This document shows positions 5,410 through 45,930 of a stretch of DNA of 64,000 nucleotides, one piece after another. The DNA is taken from the NCBI GenBank assembly GCA_032622095.1, contig CP136068.1:132315989-132379988 (forward strand), in the 5' to 3' direction. A model generated the notes under the pieces. The model saw only the letters and a program-made list of their open reading frames with translations, searched no databases and had not been told where the DNA came from. The position numbers and the translations under genes are program-made. How positions within the stretch are numbered: position 1 is the stretch's first letter; every line of letters begins with the position of its first letter. The DNA comes from Siphonodentalium dalli. Taxonomy: Eukaryota > Mollusca > Scaphopoda > Gadilida > Siphonodentaliidae.

Positions 5410-5434
5410 AATTATATATATATATATATATATA
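5410..5434. repeat. (AT)n microsatellite
   Basis: About twelve TA dinucleotides, much shorter at the matching position in copy 2 (about 44977-44987). Confidence 0.85.
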
Positions 5435-9806: not shown

Positions 9807-9832
9807 CTTGAATTCGGTGTGACTAATTAGTG

Positions 9833-10606
9833 CCCGGGCAAGCCCGGGCACGCCCGGGCACGCCCGGGCAAGCCCGGGCACGCCCGGGCAGGTCTTGGTG
9901 GTCTCATGGGCCCGCAGACAGTCTAATATGATGCCATATGGTAGTAGGATACAGAATAAGCATATATTAGGGGAATTGACTTGCTGTGTCGTCCACCGGC
10001 GGGTTTATTAACCATTTAAATGCCGATATTGACTAAAAGAACCCGGGAGAGCCCAGACGGACGCATAGACCCGACCATATTATATATTGATGACTAATGG
10101 TAGCGAGGCACTTACTAAAGGTATATATTGCAAATATTGACTCGCTATCTCGTTCGCGGCCGGCTTCATTAACCCCTTAAATGACGATATGCGCCAGAAG
10201 AACATGGCGCAAGCCCGGGCACGCCCGGGCAGGTCTTGTTGGTCTCATGGGCCCGCAGACAGTCTAATATGATGCCATATGGTAGTAGGATACATAATAA
10301 GCATATATTAGGAAAATTGACTTGCTGTGTCGTCCACCGGCGGGTTTATTAACCATTTAAATGCCGATATTGACTAAAAGAACCCGGGAAAGCCCAGACG
10401 GACGCATAGACCCGACCATATTATATATTGATGACTAATGGTAGCGAGGCACTTACTAAAGGTATATATTGGAAATATTGACTCGCTATCTCGTTCGCGG
10501 CCGGCTTCATTAACCCCTTAAATGACGATATGCGCCAGAAGAACATGGCGCAAGCCCGGGCACGCCCGGGCAGGTCTTGGTGGTATCATGGGCCCGCGAT
10601 ACCATT
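9833..10606 (+). repeat. Left arm: about two 340-bp units
   Basis: The period is 341 bp (CTAATATGATGCCATATGG recurs at 9922 and 10263). Each unit is a diverged dimer. One half carries GACTTGCTGTGTCGTCCACC and ATTAACCATTTAAATGCCG; the other carries GACTCGCTATCTCGTTCGCG and TTAACCCCTTAAATGACG. The arm starts with several GCCCGGGC(A/G) decamers. Confidence 0.88.
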
Positions 10607-11855: not shown

Positions 11856-11867
11856 TCTCCAGGGTTC

Positions 11868-13425
11868 TTCTAGTTAATATCGGCATTTAAATGGTTAATT
11901 AACCCGCCGGTGGTCGACACAGCAAGTCAATTTTCATTTTCTATGCTTATTCTGTATATATCCTACTACCATATACGACATCATATTAGACTGTCCGCGG
12001 GCCCATGAGGCCATCAGGGCCTGCCCGGACTTGCCCGGGCTTTCACGTGCTCTCTTGGTGCAGATCGTCATTTAAGGGATTAATAAAGCCGGCCGCGAAC
12101 GAAATAGCGAGTCAATATTTACAATATACCTTTAGTAAGTGCCTCGATCCCATTATTCATCAATATATAATATGATCGGGTCGCTGTGTCAGTCGAGGCT
12201 CTCCCGGGTTCTTTAAGTTAATATCGGCATTTAAAGTGTTAATAAACCCGCCGGTTGATGACACAGCAAGTAAATTTGCATGCTTATTCAGAATCCTACT
12301 ACCGTACGGAATCATATTAGACTGTCCGCGGGTTCAGGAGGCAGCCAGGGCCTGTCCGGGCTTGCCCGGGCTTGCCGCGTTCTTCTGGCGCATATCGTTA
12401 TTTAAGGGGTTAAGGAAGCCGGCGGCGAACGAGATAGCGAGTCAATATTTGCAATATACCTTTAGTAAGTGCCTCGCTACCATTAGTCATCAATATATAA
12501 TATTATCAGGTTTCTGTGTCCGTCCGGTCTCTCCCGGGTTCTTTTTAGTTAATATCGATATTTAGAGGGTTAATAAACCCGCCGGTGGACGACACAGCAA
12601 GTCAATTTTCAAAATATATGCTTATTCTGTATCCTACTACCATATGACATCATATTAGACTGTCTGCGGGCCCATGAGACCACCAGGGCCTGCCCGGGCG
12701 TGCCCGGGCTTGCGCCATGTTCTTCTGGCACATATCGTCATTTAAGGGGGTAATGAAGCTTGCCGCGAACGAGATAGCGAGTCAATATTTGCAATATACC
12801 TTTAGTAAGTGCCTCGCAACCATTAGTCATCAATATATAATATGGTTGGGTCTATGCGTCCGTCTGGGCTCTCCCGGGTTCTTTTAGTCAATATCGGCAT
12901 TTAAATGGTTAATAAACCCGCCGGTGGACGACACAGCAAGTCAATTTTCATAATATATGCTTATTCTGTATCCTACTACCATATGACATCATATTAGACT
13001 GTCTGCGGGTCCATGAGATCACCAGGGCCTGCCCGGGCGTGCCCGGGCTTGCGCCATGTTCTTCTGGCGCATATCGTCATTTAAGGGGTTAATGAAGCCG
13101 GCCGCGAGCGAGATAGCGAGTCAATATTTGCAATATATACCTTTAGTAAGTGCCTCGCTACCATTAGTCATCAATATATAATATGGTCGGGTCTATGCGT
13201 CCGTCTGGGCTCTCCCGGGTTCTTTTAGTCAATATCGGCATTTAAATGGTTAATAAACCCGCCGGTGGACGACACAGCAAGTCAATTTTCACAATATATG
13301 CTTATTCTGTATCCTACTACCATGTGGCATCATATTAGACTGTCTGCGGGCCAATGAGATCACCCGAACCTGCCCGGGCGTGCCCGGGCTTGCCCGGGCG
13401 TGCCCGGGCGTGCCCGGGCACTAAT
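11868..13425 (-). repeat. Right arm: four to five inverted 340-bp units
   Basis: CATATTAGACTGT recurs about every 330-341 bp (near 11984, 12313, 12651, 12990 and 13331). The units are the reverse complement of the left arm. The outermost copies are the most alike and the innermost the most diverged. The arm ends in five GCCCGGGC decamers. A 109-codon open frame at 12236-12565 falls wholly inside the repeat and is not a gene. Confidence 0.88.
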
Positions 13426-21792: not shown

Positions 21793-22205
21793 AGGCAAGA
21801 TTTGGTATATCTATCCTCACTGATACTGGCACACCAAATATCACACTGTCTGTCTAAATTTGACATCATATTTTCATATTCAGGGCAGCAGGATGACTAC
21901 GTTCTAACCACCCCCCCCCCCCCGGCGATATTGCCACAAATTGTAATTTTGGTTAAGTTGCGATAACGTATGATCTAATCCCTATTTTTTCTTATTTTTT
22001 TTCTTTCAAATAACTTGAATTTTGTATTATGTGGGAAGATCAATACACATATATTCGAACAACCGTGAAGACGGACAGTTATGTCATGCTGATCCTGTGC
22101 AATAGTTTAATTTTGTGCGATGATTCGTTGGTTTTTCATTGACTGTTGTGCAAATAACCAGTATTACAAGTTTTATATGCATATGCATGGGTATTATATA
22201 TAGTA
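21793..22205. other. Unassigned flank of the Helitron array
   Basis: Host-side sequence with a poly-C tract (about 21909-21922). On the minus strand the first base after CTAG is T (22205), the expected Helitron insertion context. Confidence 0.5.
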
Positions 22206-23229
22206 CTAGCAGGTTAGCCCGCCACTGGCGGCATTCGTCCCATGGCTTTGTTTCAGAAACATGACATTTTTGTAATTATTTTGTTATTATTTATTTTTGT
22301 TTTTTATTTTTGAATATGAATTTAATGTTTTTTAAATTTAATATATTTTGTTTCTGAATTTTTTTTTTATTGTTAATTTTTTTTAATTTTAAATTGTTTT
22401 AATTAATTTTTTTGTTTCTGGCGGAAAAATTTACCCGTAGAAATCCCCCCTTCCTAGGAACGACAGACAACGCATTCTTTGTTTCGTGAAATCTCTCTAC
22501 GATAACATTGCATTGAATTTAAAACAAACGCTTCCCGTCGGGAAATCTGTCTTCGGGTCGTTGTTGTTGGCATCACGGCTCCCCGAAAACTCTCACATTG
22601 CCGAAAACGTGTATTTAGTAATATCGTTGTTGTTGATATTTACGGCTTGGGGGCTATTTTCTTATTTAGCAAGTTTGAGCTCAATCGGTTAGAGTCTATA
22701 AAGGACACACTCATATATATGACACTTCCCGTAGGTAGCAAGTTTGAGCTCAATCGGCATTCCCTGGAATTTCCCGTAGATTGGCAGATTCCAGTAGCTT
22801 TATAACGGTATATCTGGGGAGAAATCTGATGCTATATTCGTGATTATCTGGGATGATTTCGGTATATACTGTAAAAACAAAGCGCGCCATCCGTGCTCGC
22901 AGGGAATAAATTTCGAGCGATAACGTTTGCGTTCCCGTATAACTCTGCAGATGCGAATAACGTTGAATGGGAAACAGACGCTCTTTATAGAGATGCGTCA
23001 AAAACAAACGCTCATTAAATAATCACTTGATTAACCCCCGCCGTGCCTTTGCGGTGATTTGAGATTGGAGAACGGGTGCTCTGAGCTTCTCTAAACCGCG
23101 ACCACGGTCGTGTCGGTGGGATTTGACACTTACATAGGAAGTTTGAGCTCAATATGTACACGTGTTTTGGATTCTATGAAGTACACACATACATATATAT
23201 ATACGAAGTCTCAAAATATATAGTATAGA
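22206..23229 (-). mobile_element. Helitron-like unit 1 of left array
   Basis: Minus strand: 5' TCTATACTATATATTTTGAG, 3' hairpin CCGCCAGTGGCGG followed by GCTAACCTGCTAG. The interior has poly-T-rich stretches and the AGTTTGAGCTCAATCGG block repeated near 22670, 22742 and 23140. No open frame of note. Confidence 0.75.
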
Positions 23230-24086
23230 CTAGCAGGTTAGCCCGCCACTGGCGGCAATCGTCAGAAACATGACAATTTAAAAATTTATTTTTAAAATTA
23301 ATTTAATTTTTTGTTTTTCAATGAGTTAATGATGAGCCCGACGTTGTCCGGGCTATTCAAAAACAAAATTTCAAGTCGATAGCTCCACCCGTTTCCGAGA
23401 TCTGGTCTGAGCATGCGCGAAGCTGGCGTCGCACGGGCTCGGCGACCCGATAAAATTCGTATCCGGGGCAAGATACATTCACTTACAAAATTTCAAGTCG
23501 ATAGCTCCACCCGTTTCCGAGATCTGGTATGCGCATGCGCGAAGCTGGCGTCGCACGGACTCGGCGACCCGATAAAATTCGTATCCGGGGAAGATACATT
23601 CACATACCAAATTTTAAGTCGATAGCTCCACCCGTTTCCGAGATCTCGTCTGCCGGGATTTCTGAGAAGCATTATGCCTTCCACACTAACTACCCCCCTA
23701 AGCCCTGACCTAAGTGTCATACATACTATAACAATGATGCTGAACACTTTGAGGCAATTATATTGCAGAAATGTTGTAAGAGTACTATGGCATCCAATAA
23801 ATCTCCCCGCAAAGGAAACCACTCAAAATTATTGTTCCCGTATATATCTCCGCAGATGCTAATAACGTTGAATGGTAAAGAGACGCTCTTTATAGCGATG
23901 CGTCAAAAACAAACGCTCATTAAATTATGACTTGATTAACCACCGCGGTGCCGATTGCGGTGATTTGGGAAGGGAGAAACGGTGCTCTGAGCTTCTCCAA
24001 AACGCAGCGACGACGATTCCCGTAGGTTTTTACATTTATATGGGAAGTTTGAACTCAATCGAGCGAACCGTTTTCGATTCTATGAA

Positions 24087-24140
<54 letters not shown>

Positions 24141-24172
24141 GGAAGTCTCAAAATATATAGTATAGAAGAAGA
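23230..24172 (-). mobile_element. Helitron-like unit 2, chimeric
   Basis: Same 3' hairpin class as unit 1. The 5' end is TCTTCTTCTATACTATATAT. At 23331-23355 it contains the hairpin of the other terminus class (AGCCCGACGTTGTCCGGGCT) without its CTAG, followed by two units of the 122-bp module (GATAGCTCCACCCGTTTCCG). This suggests two elements fused by read-through or recombination. It includes an (AT)n run at 24089-24139. Confidence 0.7.
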
Positions 24173-24827
24173 CTAGCAGGTTAGCCCGCCACTGCCGTGG
24201 TTCGTCTAATGGCTTTGTTCGAAAAGGCAATTGCAACAGCTTCCGAGACACGTATGCTGCACCTAGGTGAAATCCGCCAGTTTTACCCGATTTGACCTTG
24301 AATTGATCATTTTCAAGGTCAAGGTCAGGTCGGGGTCACAATTTAACCCGTCCATGACACTTCCCGTAGGTAGCAAGTTTGATCTCAATCGGTTCGAGTC
24401 TATAAAGGACACACATTCACCACGGCAATCGGCATTGCCGTGGCAATCGCCGTTGGCTTCAATATTCACCACGGCAATTGACTGCCGTGGGCCACGGACT
24501 GCCGTAACAGTTGATAACATGTTCACATTCGGCGGATCGGGCACTGCGGTCAGTCAAAAAACATAACGCGCGTGACGTAATTCACAACCACGTGTATTTA
24601 CCTCGAAAGTGTTAAAATTGCGCGACCGCGACACACACACAATGGCCCGATAATGGGCACGCATTCCCTGGAATTTCCCAGAAGATATTCATGGGGAGGT
24701 CAAGTGACCAATTTTGAAATTTACTTGGCGCATTCGTCTGTAGGTCTGAGGAATTATCGGCTAGATATTGTTACCAACATGACATATTAAAATTAATCCC
24801 GCCGTGCACCCCCATTACCAAGGCGAC
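23500..24827. repeat. Recent tandem duplication, first copy (1328 bp)
   Basis: Begins GATAGCTCCACCCG and ends at AAGGCGAC. The second copy follows directly. The only differences I see are the length and one interruption of the AT microsatellite, a short insertion near it and scattered single substitutions. The unit spans the junction between Helitron-like units 2 and 3. Confidence 0.88.
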
Positions 24828-25438
24828 GATAGCTCCACCCGTTTCCGAGATCTGGTATGCGCATGCGCGAAGCTGGCGTCGCACGGACTCGGCGACCCGA
24901 TAAAATTCGTATCCGGGGAAGATACATTCACATACCAAATTTTAAGTCGATAGCTCCACCCGTTTCCGAGATCTCGTCTGCCGGGATTTCTGAGAAGCAT
25001 TATGCCTTCCACACTAACTACCCCCCTAAGCCCTGACCTAAGTGTCATACATACTATAACAATGATGCTGAACACTTTGAGGCAATTATATTGCAGAAAT
25101 GTTGTAAGAGTACTATGGCATCCAATAAATCTCCCCGCAAAGGAAACCACTCAAAATTATTGTTCCCGTATATATCTCCGCAGATGCTAATAACGTTGAA
25201 TGGTAAAGAGACGCTCTTTATAGCGATGCGTCAAAAACAAACGCTCATTAAATTATGACTTGATTAACCACCGCGGTGCCGATTGCGGTGATTTGGGAAG
25301 GGAGAAACGGTGCTCTGAGCTTCTCCAAAACGCAGCGACGACGATTCCCGTAGGTTTTTACATTTAGATGCATGGGAGGTTTGAACTCAATCGAGCGAAC
25401 CGTTTTCGATTCTATGAAGTACATATATATATATATAT

Positions 25439-25480
<42 letters not shown>

Positions 25481-25512
25481 GGAAGTCTCAAAATATATAG
25501 TATAGAAGAAGA
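24173..25512 (-). mobile_element. Helitron-like unit 3
   Basis: 3' end on the minus strand is CTAACCTGCTAG with a variant hairpin (CCACGGCAGTGGCGG region). 5' end TCTTCTTCTATACTATATAT. It contains the CCACGGC/GCCGTGG palindrome cluster (24417-24510) and part of the duplicated 1.33-kb segment. Open frames of 93-99 codons here recur 1340 bp later only because of the duplication. Confidence 0.7.
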
Positions 25513-26168
25513 CTAGCAGGTTAGCCCGCCACTGCCGTGGTTCGTCTAATGGCTTTGTTCGAAAAGGCAATTGCAACAGCTTCCGAGACACGTATGCTGC
25601 ACCTAGGTGAAATCCGCCAGTTTTACCCGATTTGACCTTGAATTGATCATTTTCAAGGTCAAGGTCAGGTCGGGGTCACAATTTAACCCGTCCATGACAC
25701 TTCCCGTAGGTAGCAAGTTTGATCTCAATCGGTTCGAGTCTATAAAGGACACACATTCACCACGGCAATCGGCATTGTCGTGGCAATCGCCGTTGGCTTC
25801 AATATTCACCACGGCAATTGACTGCCGTGGGCCACGGACTGCCGTAACAGTTGATAACATGTTCACATTCGGCGGATCGGGCACTGCGGTCAGTCAAAAA
25901 ACATAACGCGCGTGACGTAATTCACAACCACGTGTATTTACCTCGAAAGTGTTAAAATTGCGCGACCGCGATACACACACAATGGCCCGATAATGGGCAC
26001 GCATTCCCTGGAATTTCCCAGAAGATATTCATGGGGAGGTCAAGTGACCAATTTTGAAATTTACTTGGCGCATTCGTCTGTAGGTCTGAGGAATTATCGG
26101 CTAGATATTGTTACCAACATGACATATTAAAATTAATCCCGCCGTGCACCCCCATTACCAAGGCGACG
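24828..26168. repeat. Recent tandem duplication, second copy (1341 bp)
   Basis: Near-identical to 23500-24827, including the same Helitron junction (25512/25513). After the copy ends (CCAAGGCGACG at 26168) the sequence continues into TAATTTTGGTACCATG, seen also near 27356. Confidence 0.88.
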
Positions 26169-26762
26169 TAATTTTGGTACCATGTGTTGCGTTCTAAAAA
26201 TAGGTCGATTGCAGTGGATTCGTAGAGATGACGAAATATGTGTGCGACAGAGAATATTGTTTGATCGAAAGCATTTGAATTAATACGTCACAAGACTTGC
26301 CTTGATGCTGGCTAATAGATATTTGTCCCTACTAGGTGTTGGGAATGTGAATTAAAATTGCCGTGGTGACGCCGTGGGGGTCGTATTTTGCCACGGCAAT
26401 ACACAAAATCTCCCCCGTACATAGAAGCGAGTTCCATATAACGTAAACAAAACCGTATGCGAAAGCCGAAGGGAATAAAGAGCGTTAACCGGTTAACGAA
26501 CCCAAATATGGAAGATCTTTATCAACGACACTGCGGATACGAACGCTCTTTAACTATCAACGCTATTAAACCCGAAGTGCGGTTTTTTGTGACTGAGAGT
26601 GGGGAACGGGTGCGCTGAGCTTCTCCAAAACGCCGCGACGACGATTCCCGTGGGTTTATACCCTTAGATGGGAAGTTTGAGCCCAATCGGTCCAGCCGTT
26701 TTCGAGTCTATAGAGGACACATATATTTATATACATACGTAGTTCTCAAAATATATAGGAGA
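25513..26762 (-). mobile_element. Helitron-like unit 4
   Basis: 5' end TCTCCTATATATTTTGAGAA, 3' end CTAACCTGCTAG. The first half is the second copy of the tandem duplication. The rest has AACGCTCTTT and CAATCGGTCCAGCCGTTTTC blocks typical of the 5' side of these units. Confidence 0.7.
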
Positions 26763-27896
26763 CTAGCAGGTTAGCCCGCCACTGGCGTGCTTGGTCAGAA
26801 ACATGACAATGTTTTATGTTTTGTTTGTGTTTTTCAATGAGTTAATATTGGGTTTTTCAATATTTTACCCGAATTGACCTTGAATTGATCATTTTCAAGG
26901 TCAAGGTCATGTCGGGGTCACAATATATAATTTGTGGGTACCCGTTTGAAGGTTAAGACTGACACCGATGAAAAAGTCCCCCGTTCCTAGGAACGACAGA
27001 CATAAGAATGTTTCACACAATGCGACGTCGACGATCCCCGTGTGTTTTTACACTTATATACGAAGTTTGAGCTCACCTAGGGCGGAAAAACTTACCCGAT
27101 CCGCGTTCTTATAGGAACACAACACGTTCCGCGTTCGTAGGAACACAACACGCTCATGTCTATACACGCCCAGACCCAGAAGAGGTATGATTTTTTTAAA
27201 CCTGCCCGTGGCCATTGAGCAGCCCCTGACAGAGGTTGTCCACCCATACGAGATGGTCAATAGTCCCCGCAAAGTTAATCCCGTCGTGAACCCCATCCTC
27301 GCAAAGAGCGGACAGTCAATTAATCCCGTCGTGAACGCCATCACCAACGCGACGTAATTTTGTTTGGTATCATGTGTTGCGTTCTAAAAATAGGAAAGCA
27401 CTTGTTCCCGTATACGTATGCGTAAATACGAATTTGTGAGTGTTGGTTTGTAACCGGGATTTATGAGAAGCATTATGCCTACAACTACCCCCCCTAAGCC
27501 CTGACCTAAGTGTCATACATACTATAACAACGATGTTGTAAGAGTACTATGGCATCCAATAAATCTCCCCGCATAGGAAACCACTCAATGTTCCCGTATA
27601 TCTCTCTGCAGATGCAAATAACGTTGAATGGCAAACAGACGCTTTTTATAGAGATGCGTCAAAAACAAACGCTCATTAAATAATCACTTGATTAACCCAC
27701 GCCGTGCCTTTGCGATGATTTGAGATTGGAGAACGGGTGCTCTGAGCTTTTCTAAACCGCGACCACGGTCGTGTCGGTGTGATTTGACACTTACATAGGA
27801 AGTTTGAGCTCAATCTGTACACGCGTTTTGGATTCTATGAAGTACACACACACACACACACACACATATACGAAGTCTCAAAATATATAGTATAGA
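26763..27896 (-). mobile_element. Helitron-like unit 5
   Basis: 5' end TCTATACTATATATTTTGAG preceded on the plus strand by a CA microsatellite (27843-27866). The 3' hairpin is degenerate (GCCAGTGGCGGGC), then CTAACCTGCTAG. Internal direct repeats GTTCCGCGTTC and AATCCCGTCGTGAAC. Confidence 0.7.
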
Positions 27897-29214
27897 CTAG
27901 CAGGTTAGCCCGCCACTGGCGGCATTCGTCCCATGGCTTTGTTCGAAAAAGCAATTGCAACAGGTTCCGAGACACTTGTGCTGCATTTGCAGCAAATTTC
28001 GGCAATAGTCAGAAACATGACAATTTATTTTTTGTTTTTCAATGAGTTAATTATTTTGTTTTTCAATGAGTTAATTGTGCTTTTTTAATTTTTTAATTGA
28101 ATTTTTTGTTTTTAAATTTTACCCGATTTTTTTGGGTTTTTCAAGGAGTTAATTGTGCCTTTTTAATTTTGTTTTTCAATTTTACCCGATTTTTTTGTTG
28201 TTTTTCAATGAACCCGTCCATGACACTTCCCGTATTTAGCAAGTTTGAGCTCAATCGGTTCGAGTCTATAAAGGACACACACATATATATGACACTTCCC
28301 GTAGGTAGCAAGTTTGAGCTCAATCGGCATTCCCTGGAATTTCCCAGTCAATATTTAGCAAGTTTGAGCTCAATCGGTTCGAGTCTATAAAGGACACACT
28401 CATATATATATGACACTTCCCGTAGGTAGCAAGTTTGAGCTCAATCGGCATTCCCTGGAATTTCCCAGTCACCAACGCGGCGTAATTTTGGTACATATAT
28501 AGAGACCAATTGTCCATCGGCTGTCATGTGTAGTAAAGATGTCTTATAAGCCGACATTGCCGTGGGGATGCCCGTTCCTACACGCGTTTTCGATTCTATG
28601 AGTAGATTGGCAGATTCCAGTAGCTTTATAACGGTATAACTGGGGAGAAATCTGATGCTATATTCGTGATTATCTGGGATGATTTCGGTATATACTGTAA
28701 AAACAAAGCGCGCCATCCGTGCTCGCAGGGAATAAATTTCGAGCGATAACGTTTGCGTAAATACGAAATTGTGAGTGTTGGTTTGTAACCGGGATTTCTG
28801 AGAAGCATTATGCCTATAACTACCCCCCCCCCTAAGCCCTGACCTAAGTGTCATACATACTATAACAATGATGTTGTAAGAGCTCCAATAAATCACCCCG
28901 CATAGGCAAGTACTCAATGTTCCCGTATAACTATGCAGATGCTAATAACGTTGAATGGGAAACAGACGCTCTTTATAGAGATGCGTCAAAAACAAACGCT
29001 CATTAAATAATCACTTGATTAACCCACGCCGTGCCTTTGCGGTGATTTGAGATTGGAGAACGGGTGCTCTGAGCTTCTCTAAACCGCGACCACGGTCGTG
29101 TCGGTGTGATTTGACACTTACATAGGAAGTTTGAGCTCAATATGTACACGCGTTTTGGATTCTATGAAGTACACACATACATATATATATACGAAGTCTC
29201 AAAATATATAGTAA
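27897..29214 (-). mobile_element. Helitron-like unit 6, 5' TC missing
   Basis: 3' hairpin CCGCCAGTGGCGG then GCTAACCTGCTAG. Its 5' side reads TTACTATATATTTTGAGACT directly after the next unit's CTAG, so the usual TCTA is lost. The interior repeats GCAAGTTTGAGCTCAATCGG four times and has long T-rich tracts. Much of 28600-29200 resembles unit 1. Confidence 0.65.
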
Positions 29215-30149
29215 CTAGCAGGTTAGCCCGCCACCGGCGGCTTGTCCGAAACATGACATTTTTATATATTTTTTTTTAATTTTTAGCTCCACGCGTTTCA
29301 ATAAGAAAAATTTGTACCCGGTAGCTCCACCAGTTTCCGAGATCTGGTCTGCGCATGAAAATTTGTACCCGGCGCAAGATACATTCACATGCCAAATTTC
29401 AAGTAGATAGCTCCACCCGTTTCCGAGATCTCGTCTGCGCATGCGCTGCACAGGCGTCGCACGGGCTCGGCGACCCGATAAAATTTGTACCCGGCGCAAG
29501 ATACATTCACATAGCAAATTTCAAGTCGATAGCTCCACCCGTTTCCGAGATCTCGTCTGCGCATGCGCTACACGGGTGTCGCACGGGCTCGGCGACCCGA
29601 TAAAATTTGTACCCGGCGCAAGATACATTCACATAGCAAATTTCAAAGTCGATAGCTCCACCCGTTTCCGAGATCTCGTCTGCGCATGCGCTGCACGGGC
29701 GTCGCACGGGCTCGGCGACCCGATAAAATTTGTACCCGGCGCAAGATACATTCACATAGCAAATTTCAAGTCGATAGCTCCACCCGTTTCCGAGATCTCG
29801 TCTGCGCATGCGCTGCACGGGCGTCGCACGGGCTCGCCAATACGACAACGACCACCGCCTAGTCAAACTACACACACGTACCAAGTTTCGTCCCGATCGG
29901 TCGAGAATCGTAGATTTGTATGAAGTACAACACACACACAAACATAAATATATAAGAGAGATATGTAAATTAGATAGATTGTATTAAAATATATAGGAGA
30001 GATATGTAAATGATCTACACACCATTACTGGTGTTTGTCAAAGTTTAGTGGGGTATATCAATACTCATTCACGATCATATCATTGAGGTCCGGAGGGTGT
30101 GGGCTATCTCTCGAATACAAGGAGTTCTCAAAATATATAGAAGAGAAGA
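29215..30149 (-). mobile_element. Helitron-like unit 7, with 122-bp modules
   Basis: 3' hairpin CCGCCGGTGGCGG then GCTAACCTGCTAG. 5' end TCTTCTCTTCTATATATTTT. At 29395-29840 there are about four modules of 121-124 bp (GATAGCTCCACCCGTTTCCG, then CTGCGCATGCGC, then GGCGACCCGATAAAATTTGT). The plus-strand unit at 33679-34484 is a close inverted copy, including the 30000-30130 segment. Confidence 0.75.
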
Positions 30150-31055
30150 CTAGCAGGTTAGCCCGCCACCGGCGGCGTTTGTCCGAAACATGACATTTTT
30201 TAAATTATTTTGTTTTAATTTATATTGTTATTTTTTTTTTGAATTTTTTAATATTAATTTAATGTTTTTTAAATATAATTTATGTTTTTTGTTTAAAATT
30301 TCAACATTTTTTAAATTTTTTTTTTTTTTAATTCTGCCTTTTTTAATTTTTTTTTTATTAATTTTTTTGTTTCTGGCGTTTACCCGATGAAATCCCTTAA
30401 ATTTTTTTAATTAATTCTTTTACCCGATTTGACCTTGAATTGATCATTTTCAAGGTCAAGGTCAGGTCGGGTGACAATTTAACCCGTCCATGACACTTCC
30501 CGTAGACACCAAGTTTGAGCTCAATCGGTCCGAGTCTATAAAGGACACACACATATATATCATTTGTGGGTACCCGTTTCAAGGTGAAGATCACCTCGGG
30601 CGGAAAAACTTACCCGATAAAAATCTCCCCCGTTCCTTGGAACTCCTAAGTACGAAATTAAGTACCAAATTTCGCCTCGAGACGGTCAATGGAGCCGTAC
30701 TTATACTCGTCGTGTATATAGACGCTCAGTACGATAACATTTATTGAATTGAAAACAAACGCTTCCCGTCGTGAAAATCGCTCTGCATAATATTTCGAGC
30801 GACAGGCTACAATCTCTCTGCAGATGCTAATAACGTTGAGTGGTAAATAAACGCTCTTTATAGCGATGTGTCAAAAACAAACGCTCATTAAATTATGACT
30901 TGATTAACCACCGCGGTGCCGATTGCGGTGATTTGGGAAGGGAGAAACGGTGCTCTGAGCTTCTCCAAAACGCCGCGACGACGATTCCCGTATGTTTTTT
31001 ACATTTAGATGGGAAGTTTGAACTCAATCGAGCGAACCGTTTTCGATTCTATGAA

Positions 31056-31086
<31 letters not shown>

Positions 31087-31113
31087 CGGAAGTCTCAAAA
31101 TATATAGTATAGA
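30150..31113 (-). mobile_element. Helitron-like unit 8
   Basis: 3' hairpin CCGCCGGTGGCGG and CTAACCTGCTAG; 5' end TCTATACTATATATTTTGAG next to an (AT)n run. The interior combines a T-rich tract (30185-30420), TTGACCTTGAATTGATCATT and the AACGCTCTTTATAG block shared with units 2-4. Confidence 0.7.
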
Positions 31114-31882
31114 CTAGCTGGTGGACCCGACTTCGTCCGGGTTGTTTCCCCTCTGCTTTTCTTTGAATTGCGCGATTTGACCTTGAATTGTCCATTTTGA
31201 AGGTCAAGTTCAGGTGGGGTCACGATTTGACCCGTCCAAAACACTGCCCAGACAAAAGTACAAGACAAAAGTACCCGTCGAAATCCATTTGATTTTACCA
31301 GATTTGACCTTGAATTGACCATTTTGAAGGTCAAGGTAAGGTCGGGGTCACGATTTGACCCGTCCAAAACACTACGTGGACCAAAGTAACTATAGGTATC
31401 AAATTTCATCGAAATCCGTTCGTTTTACCCGATTTGACCTTGTATTGACCTTTTTGAAGGTCAAGGTCAGGTCGGAGTAACGATTTGACCCGTCCAAAAG
31501 AAACGCCGAACAAAAGTACCCCTAGACACCAATTTTCATCGAAATCCCTAGATATTTGACCTTCAAATGACCCGATTTCAAGGTCAAGGTCACGTCGCAC
31601 AGGCAAATGATTAGGCTTTCGACACTCCCCAAACGAAAGTATCCCCAGACACTAATTTTCATCGAAATCCCGCGATACTCCGGCGTTTGACATTGAAATG
31701 ACCCGATTTCAAGGTCAATGTCACGTCGCACGGGCAAGTTAATCGGCCCATGCCACTCCACGGCCGAAAGTATCCCCACATACCAAGTTTCATCGAAATC
31801 GGCTTGGCCGTTTTCGAGTCCATCGCGAACACACACACACACACACACACAGACAGACATATCTTCCAAAATATATAATAGA
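31114..31882 (-). mobile_element. Helitron-like unit 9, distinct family
   Basis: Third terminus class: on the minus strand the 3' end has stem ACCCGG with TCGGGT, then CCACCAGCTAG. 5' end TCTATTATATATTTTGGAAG. The interior is five to six diverged repeats around GATTTGACCTTGAATTGACC and AAGGTCAAGGTCAGGTCGG, spaced about 95-135 bp. Confidence 0.72.
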
Positions 31883-32376
31883 CTAGCCGATGAGCCCGAC
31901 TTTGTCCGGGCTATTCAAAAACCAAATTTCAAGTCGATAGCTCTACCCGTTTCCGAGATCTGGTCTGCGCATGCGCGAAGCTGGCGTCGCAAGCGACCGA
32001 TAAAATTCGTATCCGGGGCAAGATACATTCACATACCAAATTTCAAGTCGATAGCTCCACCCGTTTCCGAGATCTCGTCTGCGCATGCGCGAAGCTGGCG
32101 TCGCACGGGCTCGGCGACCCGATAAAATTTGTATCCGGGGCAAGATACATTCACATACCAAATTTCAAGTCGATAGCTCCACCCGTTTCCGAGATCTCGT
32201 CTGCGCATGCGCGAAGCAGGCGCCGCACGGGCTCGCCAATACGACAACGTCGACCGCCTGGTCAAACTACACACACGTACCAAGTTTCGTCCCGATCGGT
32301 CGACAATCGTAGATTTGTATAAATGACAGACAAACAAACAGACAAACAGACAGAGGTCTTCAAAATATATATGAGA
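31883..32376 (-). mobile_element. Helitron-like unit 10 (494 bp)
   Basis: Second terminus class: stem AGCCCG with CGGGCT, then CATCGGCTAG. 5' end TCTCATATATATTTTGAAGA, then TGTCTGTTTGTC runs. It holds about three 122-bp modules. Open frames across it are periodic shadows of the modules. Confidence 0.78.
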
Positions 32377-32955
32377 CTAGCCGATGAGCCCGACGTTGTC
32401 CGGGCTATTCAAAAACCAAATTTCAGGTCGATAGCTCCACCCGTTTCCGAGATCTGTCTGTAAACCAAATTTCAAGTCGATAGCTCCACCCGTTTCCGAG
32501 ATCTGGTCTGCGCATGCGCGAAGCTGGCGTCGCACGGACTCGGCGACCCGATAAAATTCGTATCCGGGGCAAGATACATTCACATAGCAAATTTCCAGTC
32601 GATAGCTCCACCCGTTTCCGAGATCTGGTCTGCGAATGCGCGAAGCTGGCGTCGCACGGGCTCGGCGACCCGATAAATGTCGTATCCGGGGCCAGGTACA
32701 TTCACATAGCAAATTTCAAGTCGATAGCTCCACCCGTTTCCGATATCTCGTCTGCGCATGCGCGAAGCGGGTGCCGCACGGGCTCGTCAATACGACAACG
32801 TCCACCGCCTGGTCAAACTACACTTACAGACCAAGTTTCGTCCCGATCGGTCGAGAATCGTAGATTTGTATAAATGACAGACAAACAGACAAACAGACAA
32901 ACAGACAAACAGACAAACAGACAGACAGACAGAGGTCTTCAAAATATATGTGAGA
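32377..32955 (-). mobile_element. Helitron-like unit 11, right end of left array
   Basis: Same class as unit 10. 5' end TCTCACATATATTTTGAAGA with host A at 32956 on the opposite strand's reading (GAACA|TCTC), the expected A|T context. A GACAAACA/GACAGACA run lies at 32877-32931. Confidence 0.78.
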
Positions 32956-33678
32956 TGTTCACTTTCAGCTGAAAAAAATGATCTAGTCAACAAAATCTTA
33001 GGTAATCAGAAATAGATTGTTTGACATTCCCCAGATACTAAATGTGACTGTATATTTTAGAAAAAATAAATTTCAACTCTGATGTTTGCAAATATGTCAA
33101 TAGGAAATATCATTTTATTTATAATCATTGTCAACTGGTCACACCAGAATGATGATTATTATGGGCAAACGTATCTTCGATACTTCATTAACAAACAGTT
33201 CAATAAGTGTAGTCCGGAAAAATAGATACAATTTTTAGACTTCAATATCTATAACCAGGGCTAATAATGGACAAAGATCATAACCGATCAATATTTCTGG
33301 CCTATTGGCACGCCCATTTCTGCCAGAGTAAATTCATTTGCTAACCAGCTATTTGATTCATTGTATCCTATTTATCTCCATTGATATGTCGAACTTTCGA
33401 TAAATTAGGCCGCTACTGTTAATTTATTTGTTTGCCATTCCCTGCACAATGTAACACGTTTGTGTAGGTAGGTCTCTTATATCTGTTTTACTTTCTTTAT
33501 TTAACTTCAATTTCATTTCTAAGATCCCATGATAGTAGATGAATATATTATCTTATAGCCCAATGCATAATTGCATTTTGAAGTTGGTATTTTGAAGTTC
33601 TTCACATAAATTATTAACTTTATGAAGGTTGAATCCATCAGTTGTGATTTCGTGATTTTGTTAGATGAATGTTCTCTA
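32956..33678. other. Spacer between the opposed Helitron arrays; no gene seen
   Basis: AT-rich sequence resembling none of the units. Longest frame 69 codons (33519-33728, minus), overlapping the edge of the next element. It could be the original host sequence. Confidence 0.5.
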
Positions 33679-34484
33679 TCTCTTCTATATATTTTGAGAA
33701 CTCCTTGTATTCGAGAGATAGCCCACACCCTCCGGACCTCAATGATATGATCGTGAATGAGTATTGATATACCCCACTAAACTTTGACAAACACCAGTAA
33801 TGGTGTGTAGATCATTTACATATCTCTCCTATATATTTTGATACAATCTATCTAATTTACATATCTCTCTTATATATTTATGTTTGTGTGTGTTGTACTT
33901 CATACAAATCTACGATTCTCGACCGATCGGGACGAAACTTGGTACGTGTGTGTAGTTTGACCAGGTGGTGGTCGTTGTCGTATTGGCGAGCCCGTGCGAC
34001 GCCCGTGCAGCGCATGCGCAGACGAGATCTCGGAAACGGGTGGAGCTATCGACTTGAAATTTGCTATGTGAATGTATCTTGCGCCGGGTACAAATTTTAT
34101 CGGGTCGACGAGCCCGTGCGACGCCCGTGCAGCGCATGCGCAGACGAGATCTCGGAAACGGGTGGAGCTATCGACTTGAAATTTGCTATGTGAATGTATC
34201 TTGCGCCGGGTACAAATTTTATCGGGTCGCCGAGCCCGTGCGACGCCCGTGCAGCGCATGCGCAGACGAGATCTCGGAAACGGGTGGAGCTATCGACTTG
34301 AAATTTGGCATGTGAATGTATCTTGCGCCGGGTACAAATTTTCATGCGCAGACCAGATCTCGGAAACGGGTGGAGCTACCGGGTACAATTTTTCTTATTA
34401 AAACGCGTGGAGCTAAAAATTAAAACAAAATATATAAAAATGTCATGTTTCGGACAAGCCGCCGGTGGCGGGCTAACCTGCTAG
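33679..34484 (+). mobile_element. Helitron-like unit, right array 1
   Basis: Plus strand: host A|TCTCTTCTATATATTTTGAG, 3' hairpin CCGCCGGTGGCGG, then GCTAACCTGCTAG at 34472-34484. It is almost collinear with the inverse of unit 7 (29215-30149) but has fewer 122-bp modules. Confidence 0.78.
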
Positions 34485-35036
34485 TCTCATATATATTTTG
34501 AAGACCTCTGTCTGTATGTATGTTTGTTTGTTTGTTTGTCTGTCATTTATACAAATCTACGATTCTCGACCGATCGGGACGAAACTTGGTACGTGTGTGT
34601 AGTTTGACCAGGCGGTGAACGTTGTCGTATTGGCGAGCCCGTGCGGCGCCCGCTTCGCGCATGCGCAGACGAGATATCGGAAACGGATGGAGCTATCGAC
34701 TTGAAATTTGGTATGTGAATGTATCTTGCCCCGGATACGAATTTTATCAGGTCTCCGAGCCCGTGCGACACCAGCTTCGCGCATGCGCAGACGAGATCTC
34801 GGAAACGAGTGGAGCTATCGACTTGAAATTTGGTATGTGAATGTAACTTGCCCCGGATACAAATTTTATTGGGTCGCCGAGCCCGTGCGACGCCAGCTTC
34901 GCGCATGCGCAGACCAGATATCGGAAACGGGTAGAGCTATCGACTTGAAATTTGGTTTTTGAATAGCGCTGGGTAGAGCTATCGACTTGAAATTTGGTTT
35001 TTGAATAGCCCGGACAACGTCGGGCTCATCGGCTAG
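34485..35036 (+). mobile_element. Helitron-like unit, right array 2
   Basis: Starts TCTCATATATATTTTGAAGA immediately after the previous CTAG. It ends with stem AGCCCG/CGGGCT and CATCGGCTAG. It contains TCTG/TTTG microsatellite runs, about three 122-bp modules and a 47-bp terminal duplication (AGAGCTATCGACTTGAAATT at 34932 and 34974). Confidence 0.78.
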
Positions 35037-35058
35037 TCTCATATATATTTTGAAGACC

Positions 35059-35092
<34 letters not shown>

Positions 35093-35542
35093 ATTTATAC
35101 AAATCTACGATTCTCGACCGATCGGGAAGAAACTTGGTACGTGTGTGTAGTTTGACCAGGCGGTCGACGTTGTCGTATTGGCGTGCCCGTGCGGCGCCCG
35201 CTTCGCGCTTGCGCAGACGAGATCTCGGAAACGGGTGGAGTTATCGACTTGAAATTTGCTATGTGAATGTATCTTGCCCCGGATACGAATGTTATTGGGT
35301 CGCTGAGTCCGTGCGACGCCAGCTTCGCGCATGCGCAGACGAGATATCGGAAACGGGTGGAGCTATCGACTTGAAATTTGCTATGTGAATGTATCTTGCC
35401 CCGGATACGAATTTTATCGGGTCGCCGAGTCCGTGCGACGCCAGCTTCGCGCATGCGCAGACGATATATCGGAAACGGGTGGAGCTATCGACTTGAAATT
35501 TGGTTTTTTAATAGCTCGGACAACGTCGGGCTCATCGGCTAG
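35037..35542 (+). mobile_element. Helitron-like unit, right array 3
   Basis: Starts TCTCATATATATTTTGAAGA after CTAG and ends ATCGGCTAG|T. The host continues TTGTATCGAAC. With A at 33678, the three-unit array lies between A and T, as expected for Helitrons. Confidence 0.78.
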
Positions 35543-38983: not shown

Positions 38984-41225
38984 TGTTGTCTTGTTTTACC
39001 ATCCCCAATTGTGTTACATCATTACATGCATATCATAGACTTCTGCCATCGAGAGAACCAGTTTGTCAAATTTAACTCTGTATAATATATCACAGTAATT
39101 AACTCCCGTCCATCAGTACCATGTAAGGTAAACATTATATAAAGTTTATATTAATTATTAATATAACTTCTTGGTCGTCTTGTTTACCCCCCAATTGTGT
39201 TACATCATTACATGTATATCATAGACTTCTGCCATCGAGAGAACCAGTTTGTCAAATTTAACTCTGTATAATATATCACAGTAATTAACTCCCGTCCATC
39301 AGTACCATGTAAGGTAAACACTATATAAAGTTTATATTAATTAATAATATAACTTCTTGGTCGTCTTGTTTACCCCCCAATTGTGTTACATCATTACATG
39401 TATATCATAGACTTCTGCCATCGAGAGAACCAGTTTGTCAAATGTAATTCTATATTATATATCACAGTAATTAACACTCGTCCATCGTGCCATGGGAGCT
39501 AAACACTATATAATGTTTATATTAATTATTAATATAGCTTCTTGGTCGTCTAGTTTTACCATCCCCAATTGTATTACATCATTACATGCATATCGTGGAC
39601 TTCTGATATCGAGAGAACCAGTTTGTCAAATGTAATTCTATATTATATATCACAGTGATTAACACTCGTCCATCGTGCCATGGGAGCTAAACACTATATA
39701 ATGTTTATATTAATTATTAATATAGCTTCTTGGTCGTCTAGTTTTACCATCCCCAATTGTATTACATCATTACATGCATATCGTGGACTTCTGATATCGA
39801 GAGAACCAGTTTGTCAAGTGTAATTCTATATAATATATCACAGTAATTAACACTCGTCCATCGTGCCATGGGAGCTAAACACTATATCAAGTTTATACTA
39901 ATTATTAATATAACTTCTCGGCCGTCTTATGTTACCGCCCCAATTGTGTTACATCATTACGTTCATATCATGGACTCCTGCCATCGAGAGAAGCCGTTTG
40001 TCAAATGTAACAATATAATATATGACATTAAATTAATTAACTCTCGTCCATCAGTGCCATTGGAGCTAAACACTATATAAAGTTTATACTAATTATTAAT
40101 ATAACTTCTCGGCCGTCTTATGTTACCGCCCCAATTTTGTTACATCATTACATTCATATCATGGACTCCTGCCATCGAGAGAAGCCGTTTGTCAAATGTA
40201 ACAATATAATATATCACATTAAATTAATTAACTCTCACCCACCAGTGCCATGTGAGCAAAACACTATATAAAGTTTATACTAATTATTAATATAACTTCT
40301 CGGCCGTCTTATGTTACCGCCCCAATTGTGTTACATCATTACATTCATATCATGGACTCCTGCCATCGAGAGAAGCCGTTTGTAAAATGTAACAATATAA
40401 TATATCACATTAAATTAATTAACTCTCGTCCATCAGTGCCATTGGAGCTAAACACTATATAAAGTTTATACTAATTATTAATATAACTTCTCGGCCGTCT
40501 TATGTTACCGCCCCAATTTTGTTACATCATTACATTCATATCATGGACTCCTGCCATCGAGAGAAGCCGTTTGTCAAATGTAACAATATAATATATCACA
40601 TTAAATTAATTAACTCTCACCCACCAGTGCCATGTGAGCAAAACACTATATAAAGTTTATACTAATTATTAATATAACTTCTCGGCCGTCTTATGTTACC
40701 GCCCCAATTGTGTTACATCATTACATTCATATCATGGACTCCTGCCATCGAGAGAAGCCGTTTGTAAAATGTAACAATATAATATATCACATTAAATTAA
40801 TTAACTCTCGTCCATCAGTGCCATTGGAGCTAAACACTATATAAAGTTTATACTAATTATTAATATAACTTCGCGGTCGTCTTGTTTTACCCCCGCCCAA
40901 TTACATGCATATCATGGACTTCTGACATCGAGAGAACCAGTTTGTCAAATTTAATTCTATATAATATATCACAGTAATTAACTGTCGTCCATCAGTGTCA
41001 TGGGGGGAGTTAAACACTATATACAGTTTATATTAATTATTAATATAGCTTCTTGGTCGTCTTGTTTTACCACCCCCAATTTTGTTACATCATTACATGC
41101 ATATCAAAGACTTCTGCCATCGAGAGAACCAGTTTGTCAAATTTAACTCTATATAATATATCACAGTAATTAACTCTGGTCCATTAGTGCCATGTGAGCT
41201 AAACACCATATGAAGTTTAAACGAA
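38984..41225. repeat. Intronic satellite array, 188-190 bp monomer
   Basis: About twelve tandem monomers inside the intron between the exons at 38601 and 41260. CATCGTGCCATGGGAGCTAA recurs near 39484, 39672 and 39860, giving 188 bp. Monomers at about 39860-40850 form an alternating two-monomer subpattern (CATTGGAGCTAAAC and CATGTGAGCAAAAC). It is the same family as 1-899. Confidence 0.94.
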
Positions 41226-41259
41226 TTATTATTATAACCTCGTATTGTTCTCTTTTCAG

Positions 41260-42875: not shown

Positions 42876-42916
42876 ATATTAACGGTTTTATTGACACTGA
42901 TTTATCTGTATTTTAG

Positions 42917-43318
42917 GTACATTACCTGGCAGCTCTCTACGAACATCTTACCATGGTGTTTCTGCGATTGTCATTGGCAGAAAACAGTACTTCATCTAAC
43001 GTCAGAGAAGAGTTCCATCGCGTCAGACATTATATGGAACATCACGTGATGTGTCCAATGTTCAACATGATATACACCTTCGGAATGAGAGTGCCATCCT
43101 CTTCGTGCATGATACACATACAGCTGCCCATTCACAGCTTCCGAACGCACCTTGGAAACATATTGATGTTCTCACTTAGAGAGTCATGTCGTGATATGGT
43201 TAAATTGAAGGGCTGTTTGAACACACTTCGATTGGAAGAATTTACGAACTCTGACCAGGCGGTACTGTGGACATCTCAAAACCGCTGCCCACTTTTGGAC
43301 CCGGAAAATTTAGTTTAA
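42917..43318 (+). CDS. Terminal exon of unrecognised gene, copy 2
   Basis: Acceptor TTATCTGTATTTTAG, phase 0, 133 residues and TAA stop, from VHYLAALYEHLTMVF to CPLLDPENLV. It has the same length as 3029-3430. I count 15 replaced residues, and about 20 replacement against 5 silent nucleotide differences. Replacements cluster at residues 53-75, where one cysteine of copy 1 (SCSC) is a serine; residues 100-133 are unchanged. An ATG-started 121-residue frame begins at 42953, but the open frame extends to the acceptor. No domain recognised. A longer open frame reading into this exon from 42750 passes through the MITE and is incidental. Confidence 0.72.
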   Translation, partial: VHYLAALYEHLTMVFLRLSLAENSTSSNVREEFHRVRHYMEHHVMCPMFNMIYTFGMRVPSSSCMIHIQLPIHSFRTHLGNILMFSLRESCRDMVKLKGCLNTLRLEEFTNSDQAVLWTSQNRCPLLDPENLV

Positions 43319-43356
43319 ATGGATATATCTTTACTTTCATCGACAACCTTTTATGA

Positions 43357-43578
43357 GTGATCGCAATACACATGCAATGGATTATACGATCAATGCATGA
43401 CTATTGTAACTACTGTACTACTACTACTACTACTACTACTACATTCTACTATTACGAACACGGTCTCATCTTTGAATTCACAACTACACACCGTCGCCTT
43501 GAACAAGATCAAATACCAAAGTCGGAAGATCGCATGACTCTATTACTACAAGACACTATACAGTATATGTGGGTTTGA
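43357..43578 (+). other. Conserved short open frame 3' of the gene, copy 2
   Basis: 73 codons, equivalent to 3472-3675. It contains an (ACT)n expansion at about 43417-43442 that adds six in-frame threonine codons against copy 1. The flanks MIAIHMQWIIRS and LLLQDTIQYMWV are kept. It may be 3' UTR. Confidence 0.3.
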
Positions 43579-43647
43579 ATGTATCACCGATCAGTTTTAT
43601 GCACAGTTTTTGTTCACAGCAATGCATTAACAGTACAATATAATGTA

Positions 43648-44217
43648 TCTTGTACCGATTAAGGTTGTGCGGCCTTTGTTGTCGAAAATATTCATATTTG
43701 TTCCAATCACCGTAAACAGAAAAATATTGAAACGCATACAGTTTCGTTCATATATACCATGACCATCGCGTAAACAGCATGTTATCATCAAGACCTACTA
43801 TAGTTTACCTAAGCAAGAGTATGATTGTGTTACAGAAGACAATAGAATGCTACTGGCTAATCACACATAAATGGCATAAACGCTCTTTATTAATTCCATA
43901 TCAGGAATTCACCAACAAAGAACGCTCTTTATGTTTACCATCATAATATAAACAAACGCCAGAAAAGTAACTTTGTATGCCTTTGTTTACATAACAATTG
44001 TCAAACATGTGACAATAACATACTGTTTCTGCGATATTTCTTATTTGTATACGGACAAAGTCTATCTACCCACCGCCAAGGCCAACCGTACCTTTAAGGT
44101 TGTGACCTTTTAACTGAACAGTTTGAATTACATGTATATAATGAGCTACGTGCCTTATGGTAAATTTGTCTTCAAACTTTTCAGTTATAACTCATAACCT
44201 TAATCGAAAAAAAGATT
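43648..44217. mobile_element. Palindromic MITE split by an insert, copy 2
   Basis: The outer parts correspond to 3740-3883. Between ATTAAGGTTGTGC (about 43671) and TTAAGGTTGTGAC (about 44094) lies about 420 bp absent from copy 1, with the 11-bp TTAAGGTTGTG present on both sides, consistent with a target duplication. The insert starts GGCCTTTGTTGTCG and ends CCAAGGCCAACCGTACC; its ends are only weakly complementary. Confidence 0.55.
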
Positions 44218-44497
44218 TATTTTTTATAATTTAATCCGTCATTTCACAGGAGAACCACCATTAGTAGCAGGTAGAAGTACAAAACAAGGGTTAAACTTTG
44301 AAATTTTTTCCGACGAAAAAGACACATAGTCCTAATGTTGAAAGTGACACGCTGTCACTCAAACATAAAATTATCGATTGACCAAGCGACGTCACAAATT
44401 CGTCACTTTTGATTGGCTATATTGGACAGTGTGCCCGCACTGCTCAGTTTCAGATTTCAGTTGCAATTATTAGCATGGCTTGTTGATATCGCTTGTA

Positions 44498-44700
44498 CAG
44501 TAATACGCTAAGTAATCGACTCCTTAACCACAGCATAATTATGGGTAACTTTTCAGGATTTAATCGGAAATATGGCTTGTTGCCATTCATCGGAAAGCTC
44601 TCACCGAGAGCTTTCCGATGAATGGCAAGAAGCCATATTTCCTGAAAAGTTACCCATAATTTTGCTGTTGTTAAGGAGTCGATTACTTAGAGCATTACTG
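44498..44700. mobile_element. Hairpin MITE, mariner-like TA target, copy 2 only
   Basis: A 203-bp near-perfect palindrome. CAGTAATACGCTAAGTAATC opens and the complement closes; the centre is GAAAGCTCTC/GAGAGCTTTC. TA on both sides (44496-44497 and 44701-44702). Copy 1 near 4155-4170 lacks it. One arm has a 7-bp extra segment (TTTAATC) near the middle. Confidence 0.75.
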
Positions 44701-45179
44701 TACGTATACAGTAAAGTGCTGATTGTTAATTAACAGTAAGGTTATTGGCAGGGCAGTCCTACCCAAATGAATTTTGACGCAACACCGAATTCCCTATTAT
44801 ATCATAGTATCGAATAGTTTTCATGTACATTTTAGATAGGCAGGGTGATATCACTCGATGCTGCTGTCATTTATAGAGCAGAACTTTAGGTTATCGAGAG
44901 ATAGCATTTACGGCTAAATGTGTGACAACCCACGGTGTTATGGTATTCCGCAGATTGACAGATTATGATTAAATTATATATATATAATGGTAAATCTGAC
45001 ACAATTTGCCTATGAAATATTGATATATTGCAAATGTATCAAAAATCACTATTCCGTCCTTTTAAAGTACCATGTACGTGCATGTTTTTATATGTTTTAT
45101 ACTTCGACCTTGTGTTTTAATATGTCCTATAGTCTATGTTGAATTTGTTCATTGACTGTTTGATGCTGGCGGGATGATA

Positions 45180-45930
45180 GTGGATGTTGGGTAATTATGA
45201 ATGTTGATGAGGATGAGTGTGTTTGTTGATGAGTGTGTTTGTTGATGAGTGTGATTGTTGATGAGTGTGATTGTTGATGAGTGTGTTTGTTGATGAGTGT
45301 GTTTGTTGATGAGTGTGTTTGTTGATGAGTGTGATTGTTGATGAGTGTGATTGTTGATGAGTGTGTTTGTTGATGAGTGTGTTTGTTGATGAGTGTGTTT
45401 GTTGATGAGTGTGATTGTTGATGAGTGTGATTGTTGATGAGTGTGTTTGTTGATGAGTGTGATTGTTGATGAGTGTGTTTATTGATAAGTGTGTTTGTTG
45501 ATGAGTGTGTTTGTTGATGAGTGTGATTGTTGATGAGTGTGATTGTTGATGAGTGTGATTGTTGATGAGTGTGTTTGTTGATGAGTGTGATTGTTGATGA
45601 GTGTGTTTATTGATGAGTGTGTTTGTTGATGAGTGTGTTTGTTGATGAGTGTGTTTGTTGATGAGTGTGATTGTTGATGAGTGTGATTGTTGATGAGTGT
45701 GTTTGTTGATGAGTGTGATTGTTGATGAGGATGATTGTGGATGTTGGTTATTGTGGATGTTGGTGATGGTGATTGTGGATTTTGATGAGGATAATTATAG
45801 CTGTTGACGAGGATACTTATGGGTGTTGCTGAGGTTTATTATGGATGTTGATGAGGATGACTATAGATGTTGATGAGTATATTTGTGGGTGTTGATGAGG
45901 ATGATTATGGATGTTGATGAGGACATCGCA
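45180..45930. repeat. GTTGATGAGTGTGTTT minisatellite, copy 2
   Basis: Same 16-bp repeat as 5600-6585 but more homogeneous and shorter. The flanking 18-bp variants at the right end (GATGTTGATGAGGATGAC) match copy 1, showing internal turnover with conserved edges. Confidence 0.93.

Follow-up and report, generated by a model that had tools for sequence, protein, structure and literature searches.

Helitrons standing head to tail have been described before, and the closest systems resemble the one treated here in different respects. In maize (and in bats, as cited in the same source), passages of PMC2267711 describe neighbours in which TC directly follows CTAG, giving a G/T junction (a slash marks a junction or insertion point throughout), and in which non-identical neighbours were read as consecutive insertions, with the order in which adjacent Helitrons had inserted left open in those parts of the 2008 paper. 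In Fusarium and Metarhizium, passages of PMC5148889 report one copy inserted 2 bp ahead of the partial 5' end of a second and three copies in tandem, ascribed to two 5'-end insertions or to a rolling circle, and in the parts concerned this 2016 paper leaves open which of the two produces tandem copies. Plant centromeres carry arrays of many tandem copies (mentioned in passages of PMC5148889 and PMC10095026), and the 5' end of maize Hel1158, as given in part of PMC10095026, starts TCTATACTAT, the letters of one main 5' end found here. Finally, Helraiser/Helibat uses an A/T target with an AT-rich preference that is strongest 3' of the transposon, and has an AT-rich stretch near its left-end cleavage site (passages of PMC4778049). 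Here, we analyse head-to-tail Helitron arrays in a 64-kb window, the whole stretch of DNA under study (C8:132315989-132379988), of the scaphopod Siphonodentalium dalli, together with genome-wide counts from its 2.23-Gb, nine-contig assembly. We propose that insertion at the 5' ends of resident copies, through mimicry of the host target by the element's own 5' end, is likely the main source of new junctions (probability roughly 0.72).

The window holds two such arrays. An initial annotation, made from the letters alone, had delimited eleven units of 494-1340 bp on the minus strand at 22206-32955, all ending in CTAG, and these bounds were re-derived here, with CTAG as the terminal letters of 11/11 units and with the array lying, as claimed, between host A at 32956 and host T at 22205. 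Other details changed: the TC start that it placed right after CTAG in ten of eleven cases is present at nine of the ten internal junctions, U6 with TTAC being the exception (its 5' end was probably trimmed), and the figure becomes 10/11 units only once the first is counted. The hairpin that it saw in every unit, 10-13 nt before CTAG, survives as a perfect stem, GC-rich and 5 bp or longer, in 8/11 unit ends, ending 6-9 nt before CTAG, with no passing stem in U7, U8, and U9 in the same scan. A stricter scan of the window (stem of at least 6 bp, loop of at most 7 nt) found no stems, a looser one found no additional CTAG end of these types anywhere in the window, and Rfam gave no match. The shared 5' block is exact (ATATATTTTGA) in 10 units and deviates in U3 (...TTTGG); at up to one mismatch it occurs 29 times across the window against 5.5 expected. 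A second array, ~720 bp from the first, had been overlooked; it occupies 33679-35542 and consists of three head-to-tail units in plus-strand orientation. Over aligned columns, pairwise identity among window units is 78-99%, with most pairs at 80-90% (for this comparison V1 included 3 surplus nt at its 5' side).

Such junctions are abundant throughout the genome. The exact type-1 3' end GGCGGGCTAACCTGCTAG has 10,907 matches, 5,929 of which run into TATATATTTTGA within 18 nt, while the exact type-2 3' end GTCGGGCTCATCGGCTAG has 17,881, with TATATATTTTG following 11,924 of them, so that 17,853 of 28,788 exact 3' ends of the two families pooled abut a 5' block. As a control, made for type 1 only, the inverted 5' block followed just 2 of the 10,907 3' ends, and the head-to-tail junction is therefore not due to chance. 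Among 20 sampled type-1 3' ends with no junction pattern after them and no other listed 3' end within 2 kb, 16 enter host DNA and 4 a variant 5' block. From the other side, we followed a single exact 5' end, TACTATATATTTTGAGAC, which has 8,076 copies in the genome and to which the genome-wide counts of trimmed, intact, and scarred copies refer. Of its first 100 listed copies, 25 are intact after CTAG, 27 are trimmed, 15 are scarred, and 33 are others; 16 of these 33 are plainly host-flanked and unscarred (L012, L013, L020, L047, L049, L051, L052, L054, L056-L060, L062, L137, and L138), and the remainder follow an element 3' end or remnant, save L064 and L136. The 16 represent 14 sites, with common host flanks in L012/L013 and L051/L060; all except L138 keep the TC start, which follows A in 13 cases and G in 1, while in L020 the preceding base is unclear. 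Solo copies have the same ends as the window units, and the elements are not confined to the whole 10.7-kb block.

That the units are canonical Helitrons arranged in head-to-tail arrays is close to certain; the initial annotation had called them Helitron-like. They combine the features of Helitron1: a 5' TC (10/11 window units and, for one 5' type, 15/16 unscarred copies with host flanks), a 3' CTAG with a hairpin (11/11, and a perfect GC-rich stem in 8/11), insertion between A and T without duplication (5/5 fetched empty sites of one insertion; L017 sits at G/T), and an autonomous partner with Rep and a PIF1-type helicase. The window units themselves look non-autonomous. Helentrons and HINE elements have neither a 5' TC nor a 3' CTRR, and on the TC and CTAG ends together with the purine/T sites this class was rejected; the Helentron-type target is given as the dinucleotide TT in passages of PMC5148889.

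The proposal starts from the target site. Of 52 3' flanks, 12 were removed by an automatic filter as element 5' ends (L041, with TGGTATATAATTTC, and perhaps L105 were probably host flanks all the same) and 7 as near-identical, leaving 33 independent flanks. TATA lies within +2 to +12 in 30 of them, against 9.8% of 2,053 purine/T positions in four window stretches outside the arrays; the +1 base is T in 32, and the first TATA begins at offset 1-6 in 31. Copies sit behind a purine, usually A, and directly ahead of a T, with a TATATA-type motif a few bases further on and no duplication or loss. Empty sites bear on this exactness: a query made by joining the flanks of L012 matched across the joint at 36 of 40 scored places, the other four being the L012 and L013 flanks themselves, and all five empty sites fetched read unbroken GTAATGTTTTATACA, contiguous at A/T. 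L017 lies within a 23-bp host tandem repeat in which several empty units nearby read TGTAG/TATTATATAA, which makes its site exact as well, with an extra TCTA preceding the element. The element's own 5' end, TCTA/TACTATATATTTTGA, bears a TATATA-type motif at a spacing similar to that of host targets. Its offset is 6, inside the host range, in 5' ends beginning TCTCA, TCTAT, TCTAC, and TCTCC, whereas in TCTATAC ends the outer T has offset 8, outside that range, and an inner A/T has offset 4, inside it. In our own reading, these offsets predict trimming for the TCTATAC type and little for the others. Separately, L014 and L038 have in common the host 3' flank TTTATATATAAAAGAGTATG..CTGTCTGTCTG, which itself appears to resemble a transposon 5' end.

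Trimming of this kind beside CTAG is firm. The form CTAG/TACTATATATTTTGAGAC, in which TCTA is absent beside the neighbour's CTAG, occurs 1,827 times, and the intact junction CTAG/TCTATAC (CTAG/TCTA followed by TACTATATATTTTGAGAC) 2,217 times, while beside host DNA the TC start is missing from 1/16 unscarred copies. Among 100 listed type-2 junctions, CTAG/TCATATATA occurs once against 34 cases of CTAG/TCTCATATATATTTTG, and CTAG/TATTATATA not at all against 46 cases of CTAG/TCTATTATATA; after type-1 ends, CTAG/TATTATATA was seen 3 times among the matches listed. Absence of TCTA from TCTATAC-type residents beside CTAG is what target mimicry predicted.

We suggest that the RepHel protein may recognise target DNA much like its own left end, so that each resident copy would offer a ready target at its 5' end. 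A newcomer would land immediately upstream of the resident, its CTAG abutting the resident's T, and the directionality of the motif would give both copies the same orientation. A resident with an inner A/T at the right distance (TCTATAC) would lose its TCTA, which would be left ahead of the newcomer as a scar. Repeated landings could build mixed head-to-tail arrays, some of which would be enlarged by duplication of one or several units. Different families are mixed within one array, as in the window.

Scars and their order lend the proposal moderate support. Extra TCTA stands ahead of TACTATATATTTTGAGAC at least once at 884 copies and at least twice at 234, and the balance of at least 884 + 234 scars against 1,827 trimmed copies is a rough one, with the scars of only one exact 5' end counted. 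The order was tested up to 97.5 Mb on C1, with a sample of 100 intact, 76 trimmed, and 35 scarred copies and a limit of 2.5 kb for the next copy. That next copy was trimmed after 16/23 scarred, 19/53 intact, and 11/25 trimmed copies (Fisher p 0.011 for scarred against intact; p 0.020 with same-spacing pairs collapsed, 16/42). Scarred-to-trimmed pairs numbered 16 and trimmed-to-scarred pairs 3; when copies were shuffled inside their arrays, 48 of 20,000 trials gave 16 or more, and with a 4 kb limit the observed 17/24 was reached in 19 of 20,000. None of the 16 pairs recurs at the same spacing. A scarred copy followed by a trimmed one is the order that insertion would leave.

Several observations weigh against the proposal or limit its reach. 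In a second set (20 of 49 scarred copies listed at C1 140-175 Mb, mostly one per cluster, picked before reading), the order was weaker: three had no 3' end in the stretch, one ended in host DNA, and the 16 readable neighbours comprised 7 trimmed copies (one with its first base mutated), 3 scarred, 1 intact, and 5 with a different kind of 5' end. Restricted to the classes used in the first test, 5/9 were trimmed against 19/53 (Fisher p 0.29 alone; pooled with the first set, 21/32 and p 0.013), and when the five neighbours of other types were traced one or two units on, one reached a trimmed unit. At C1:158159617-158162990, four scarred 5' ends stand on one strand exactly 1,116 bp apart, in an array whose repeated unit includes the scar; this series and the scarred copies that adjoin one another (3/16) indicate that scars have themselves been copied or duplicated, so that their number does not simply equal the number of insertions. 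The commonest pair is intact-to-intact (29/53 after intact copies), and some trimmed TAC ends may derive from TCTAC residents. Single copies also fit poorly: host-flanked L138 lacks the TC start, L064 and L136, near-identical to one another, have no clear CTAG and are ambiguous, and the host DNA bordering the second array of the window (TTGTATCG) has no TATA motif. Finally, array B (C1:49024500-49048000) contains eight units of ~1.3-1.4 kb that are 99.6-100% identical, for which insertion alone is insufficient; blocks of 1301-1118-1301 and 1417-1046-679 bp recur there at 99.4-100% identity, which suggests that duplication or multi-unit transposition followed the start of the array.

Array B brings in the processes that could compete with insertion. 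The initial annotation had offered insertion at, or rolling-circle read-through from, an existing Helitron end; the first, placed at the resident 5' end, is the better supported by the target motif and the trimmed residents, and amplification of copies also acts. In read-through, or through multimeric circles, the terminator would be skipped and two or more joined copies inserted together with perfect CTAG/TC junctions, as the 2,217 intact junctions, the near-identical units of array B, and the recurrence of 13/29 intact-to-intact pairs nearby at the same spacing would allow. Helraiser forms precise head-to-tail circles (in passages of PMC4778049), and tandem arrays are cited as backing rolling-circle transposition in part of PMC5876387. 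We nevertheless regard read-through as unlikely to be the main source, since it predicts an intact 5' end at each junction, and 1,827 of one 5' type are trimmed; alone, it does not join different families, as is seen in the window array, and it leaves unexplained why the host target and the element 5' end match. For the window array, a rolling-circle concatemer of one element, which the initial annotation had also dismissed in view of the differing lengths and classes, is ruled out by the different families and the trimmed junctions, and it is kept as a contributor elsewhere.

Growth by unequal crossing-over or segmental duplication, satellite-like and following a chance first dimer, would account for the recurring blocks of array B, for the 96% identity of U9 and U10, and for the four scarred copies spaced exactly 1,116 bp apart; it cannot make the first seamless junctions between different families, most window-unit pairs are 80-90% identical over aligned columns, and 0/16 scarred-to-trimmed pairs recur at the same spacing, so we consider it a rather improbable origin for most junctions. 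Satellite DNA was likewise rejected for the window array, with its units of 494-1340 bp in different classes and most pairs 80-90% identical, and is retained as a contributor elsewhere, array B being partly satellite-like. The differences in TCTA could also be microsatellite slippage at the 5' end, uninformative on insertion: TCTA is a tetranucleotide able to slip, and solo scarred copies exist (L015, L017, and L115). Slippage should, however, also trim beside host DNA, where 15/16 unscarred copies retain TC, and it leaves the directional order of 16 against 3 unexplained; we think it very improbable. Insertion by target mimicry remains our preferred source of new junctions, with duplication enlarging some arrays.

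An autonomous relative sits inside another array. The Helitron Rep domain (PF14214) has at least 151 matches in the genome, and in array A (C1:13714500-13760000) a unit at C1:13739545-13748230 has TCTCATATATATTTTGAAGACCTC after an 11-nt lead and ends in CGTCGGGCACATCGGCTAG, its ends resembling those of U1 and U2 except for one base at the 3' end. The unit has an open frame of 1614 aa that, scanned as two pieces, carries Helitron_like_N (PF14214), PIF1 (PF05970), and STPR domains. At L066, a type-2-like 3' end is joined by CTAG/TCTCATATATATTTTG to an element whose frame opens with nearly the same residues, and a Rep-bearing copy at a distance of 8.6 kb is its probable upstream partner; an autonomous copy stands directly behind another element's CTAG. 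At L065, a type-2 CTAG precedes a Rep-bearing element with a TCTATAC 5' end; the frame of this element is interrupted, and its 3' end lies beyond the stretch. Array A also contains, at C1:13726325-13733206, a 6882-bp unit with a 1265-aa open frame in reverse orientation, which we take to resemble a long interspersed nuclear element (LINE) protein.

Table 1. Units of the two Helitron arrays and their immediate flanks in the window (U, eleven-unit array; V, three-unit array)
Feature	Position	Strand	Length (bp)	Remarks
Host A preceding U1	32956..32956	-		A/T insertion
U1, type-2	32377..32955	-	579	5' TCTCA-CATATATTTTGA, 3' GTCGGGCTCATCGGCTAG
U2, type-2	31883..32376	-	494	95% identity to U1
U3	31114..31882	-	769	third kind of 3' end (GTCGGGTCCACCAGCTAG), 5' TCTAT
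U4, type-1	30150..31113	-	964	5' TCTATAC, 3' GGCGGGCTAACCTGCTAG
U5, type-1	29215..30149	-	935	5' TCTTCTCTTC; 99% identity to V1
U6, type-1	27897..29214	-	1318	5' TTAC, not TC
U7, type-1	26763..27896	-	1134	5' TCTATAC
U8, type-1	25513..26762	-	1250	5' TCTCC
U9, type-1	24173..25512	-	1340	extra lead TCTTCT, then TCTATAC
U10, type-1	23230..24172	-	943	5' lead as in U9; 96% identity to U9
U11, type-1	22206..23229	-	1024	5' TCTATAC; final unit, then host T
Host DNA past array 3' end	22194..22205	-		TACTATATATAA (T-NN-TATATA), motif shared with the elements' own 5' end
TCTA ahead of second array	33675..33678	+		possible scar from an earlier insertion
V1, type-1	33679..34484	+		5' TCTCTTC
V2, type-2	34485..35036	+		
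V3, type-2	35037..35542	+		then host T

Other repeats were noted in the window. Tandem repeats of ~122 bp are internal to U1, U2, U5, U10, V1, V2, and V3. A minisatellite with a 28-bp unit in ~305 copies occupies 55455-64000, reaching the window end. Tandem repeats of 341 bp at 9832-10597 and 11856-13419, apparently in opposite orientations, are edged by runs of the GCCCGGGC palindrome and are possibly another mobile element. The stretches ~2900-7700 and 42900-46900 appear to be paralogous copies, with similar open reading frames and with tandem repeats of 16, 22, 66, and 31 bp that follow one another in this order in both, and related-looking tandem repeats of 185 bp and 191 bp lie at 1-860 and 38988-41238.

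Tandem Helitrons and insertion at 5' ends have been proposed earlier; target mimicry and scars are what is new here. Among mostly open-access titles and opening abstracts, none dealt with a Helitron whose own 5' end repeats its target motif, nor with scars giving insertion order. The motif echoed in the 5' end, together with trimmed residents and scars, allows the questions left by the maize and fungal papers to be tested on the sequence of any genome that carries Helitrons of this kind, provides a concrete route from dispersed transposon to satellite-like arrays, and offers a hypothesis for how HUH-nuclease transposases recognise targets. More tentatively, at somewhat less than an even chance, we infer a single DNA-recognition mode for left end and target, with each copy a landing pad and the 4-nt scars recording relative insertion order; given the match to the maize 5' end, it may be general for TCTATACTA-type Helitrons and underlie tandem Helitrons elsewhere.

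The known systems differ from the present one in several respects. For maize Hel1158, the passages of PMC10095026 describe no tandem arrays, unlike here. The fungal copies have Helitron2-like ends and are single cases, and the passages of PMC5148889 mention no target motif common with the 5' end. Plant centromeric arrays are described, in parts of PMC5148889 and PMC10095026, as truncated copies explicable by circular intermediates, whereas here mixed families with both ends are found. Helraiser showed a general AT preference in human cells (passages of PMC4778049); here a positioned TATATA-type motif recurs at the element's own 5' end, and arrays are proposed to result from this. Relative to the maize and bat neighbours, as described in passages of PMC2267711, the present genome adds more than 17,000 junctions, a target motif that the 5' end shares, and trimming of 5' ends, which suggests landing upstream of the resident.

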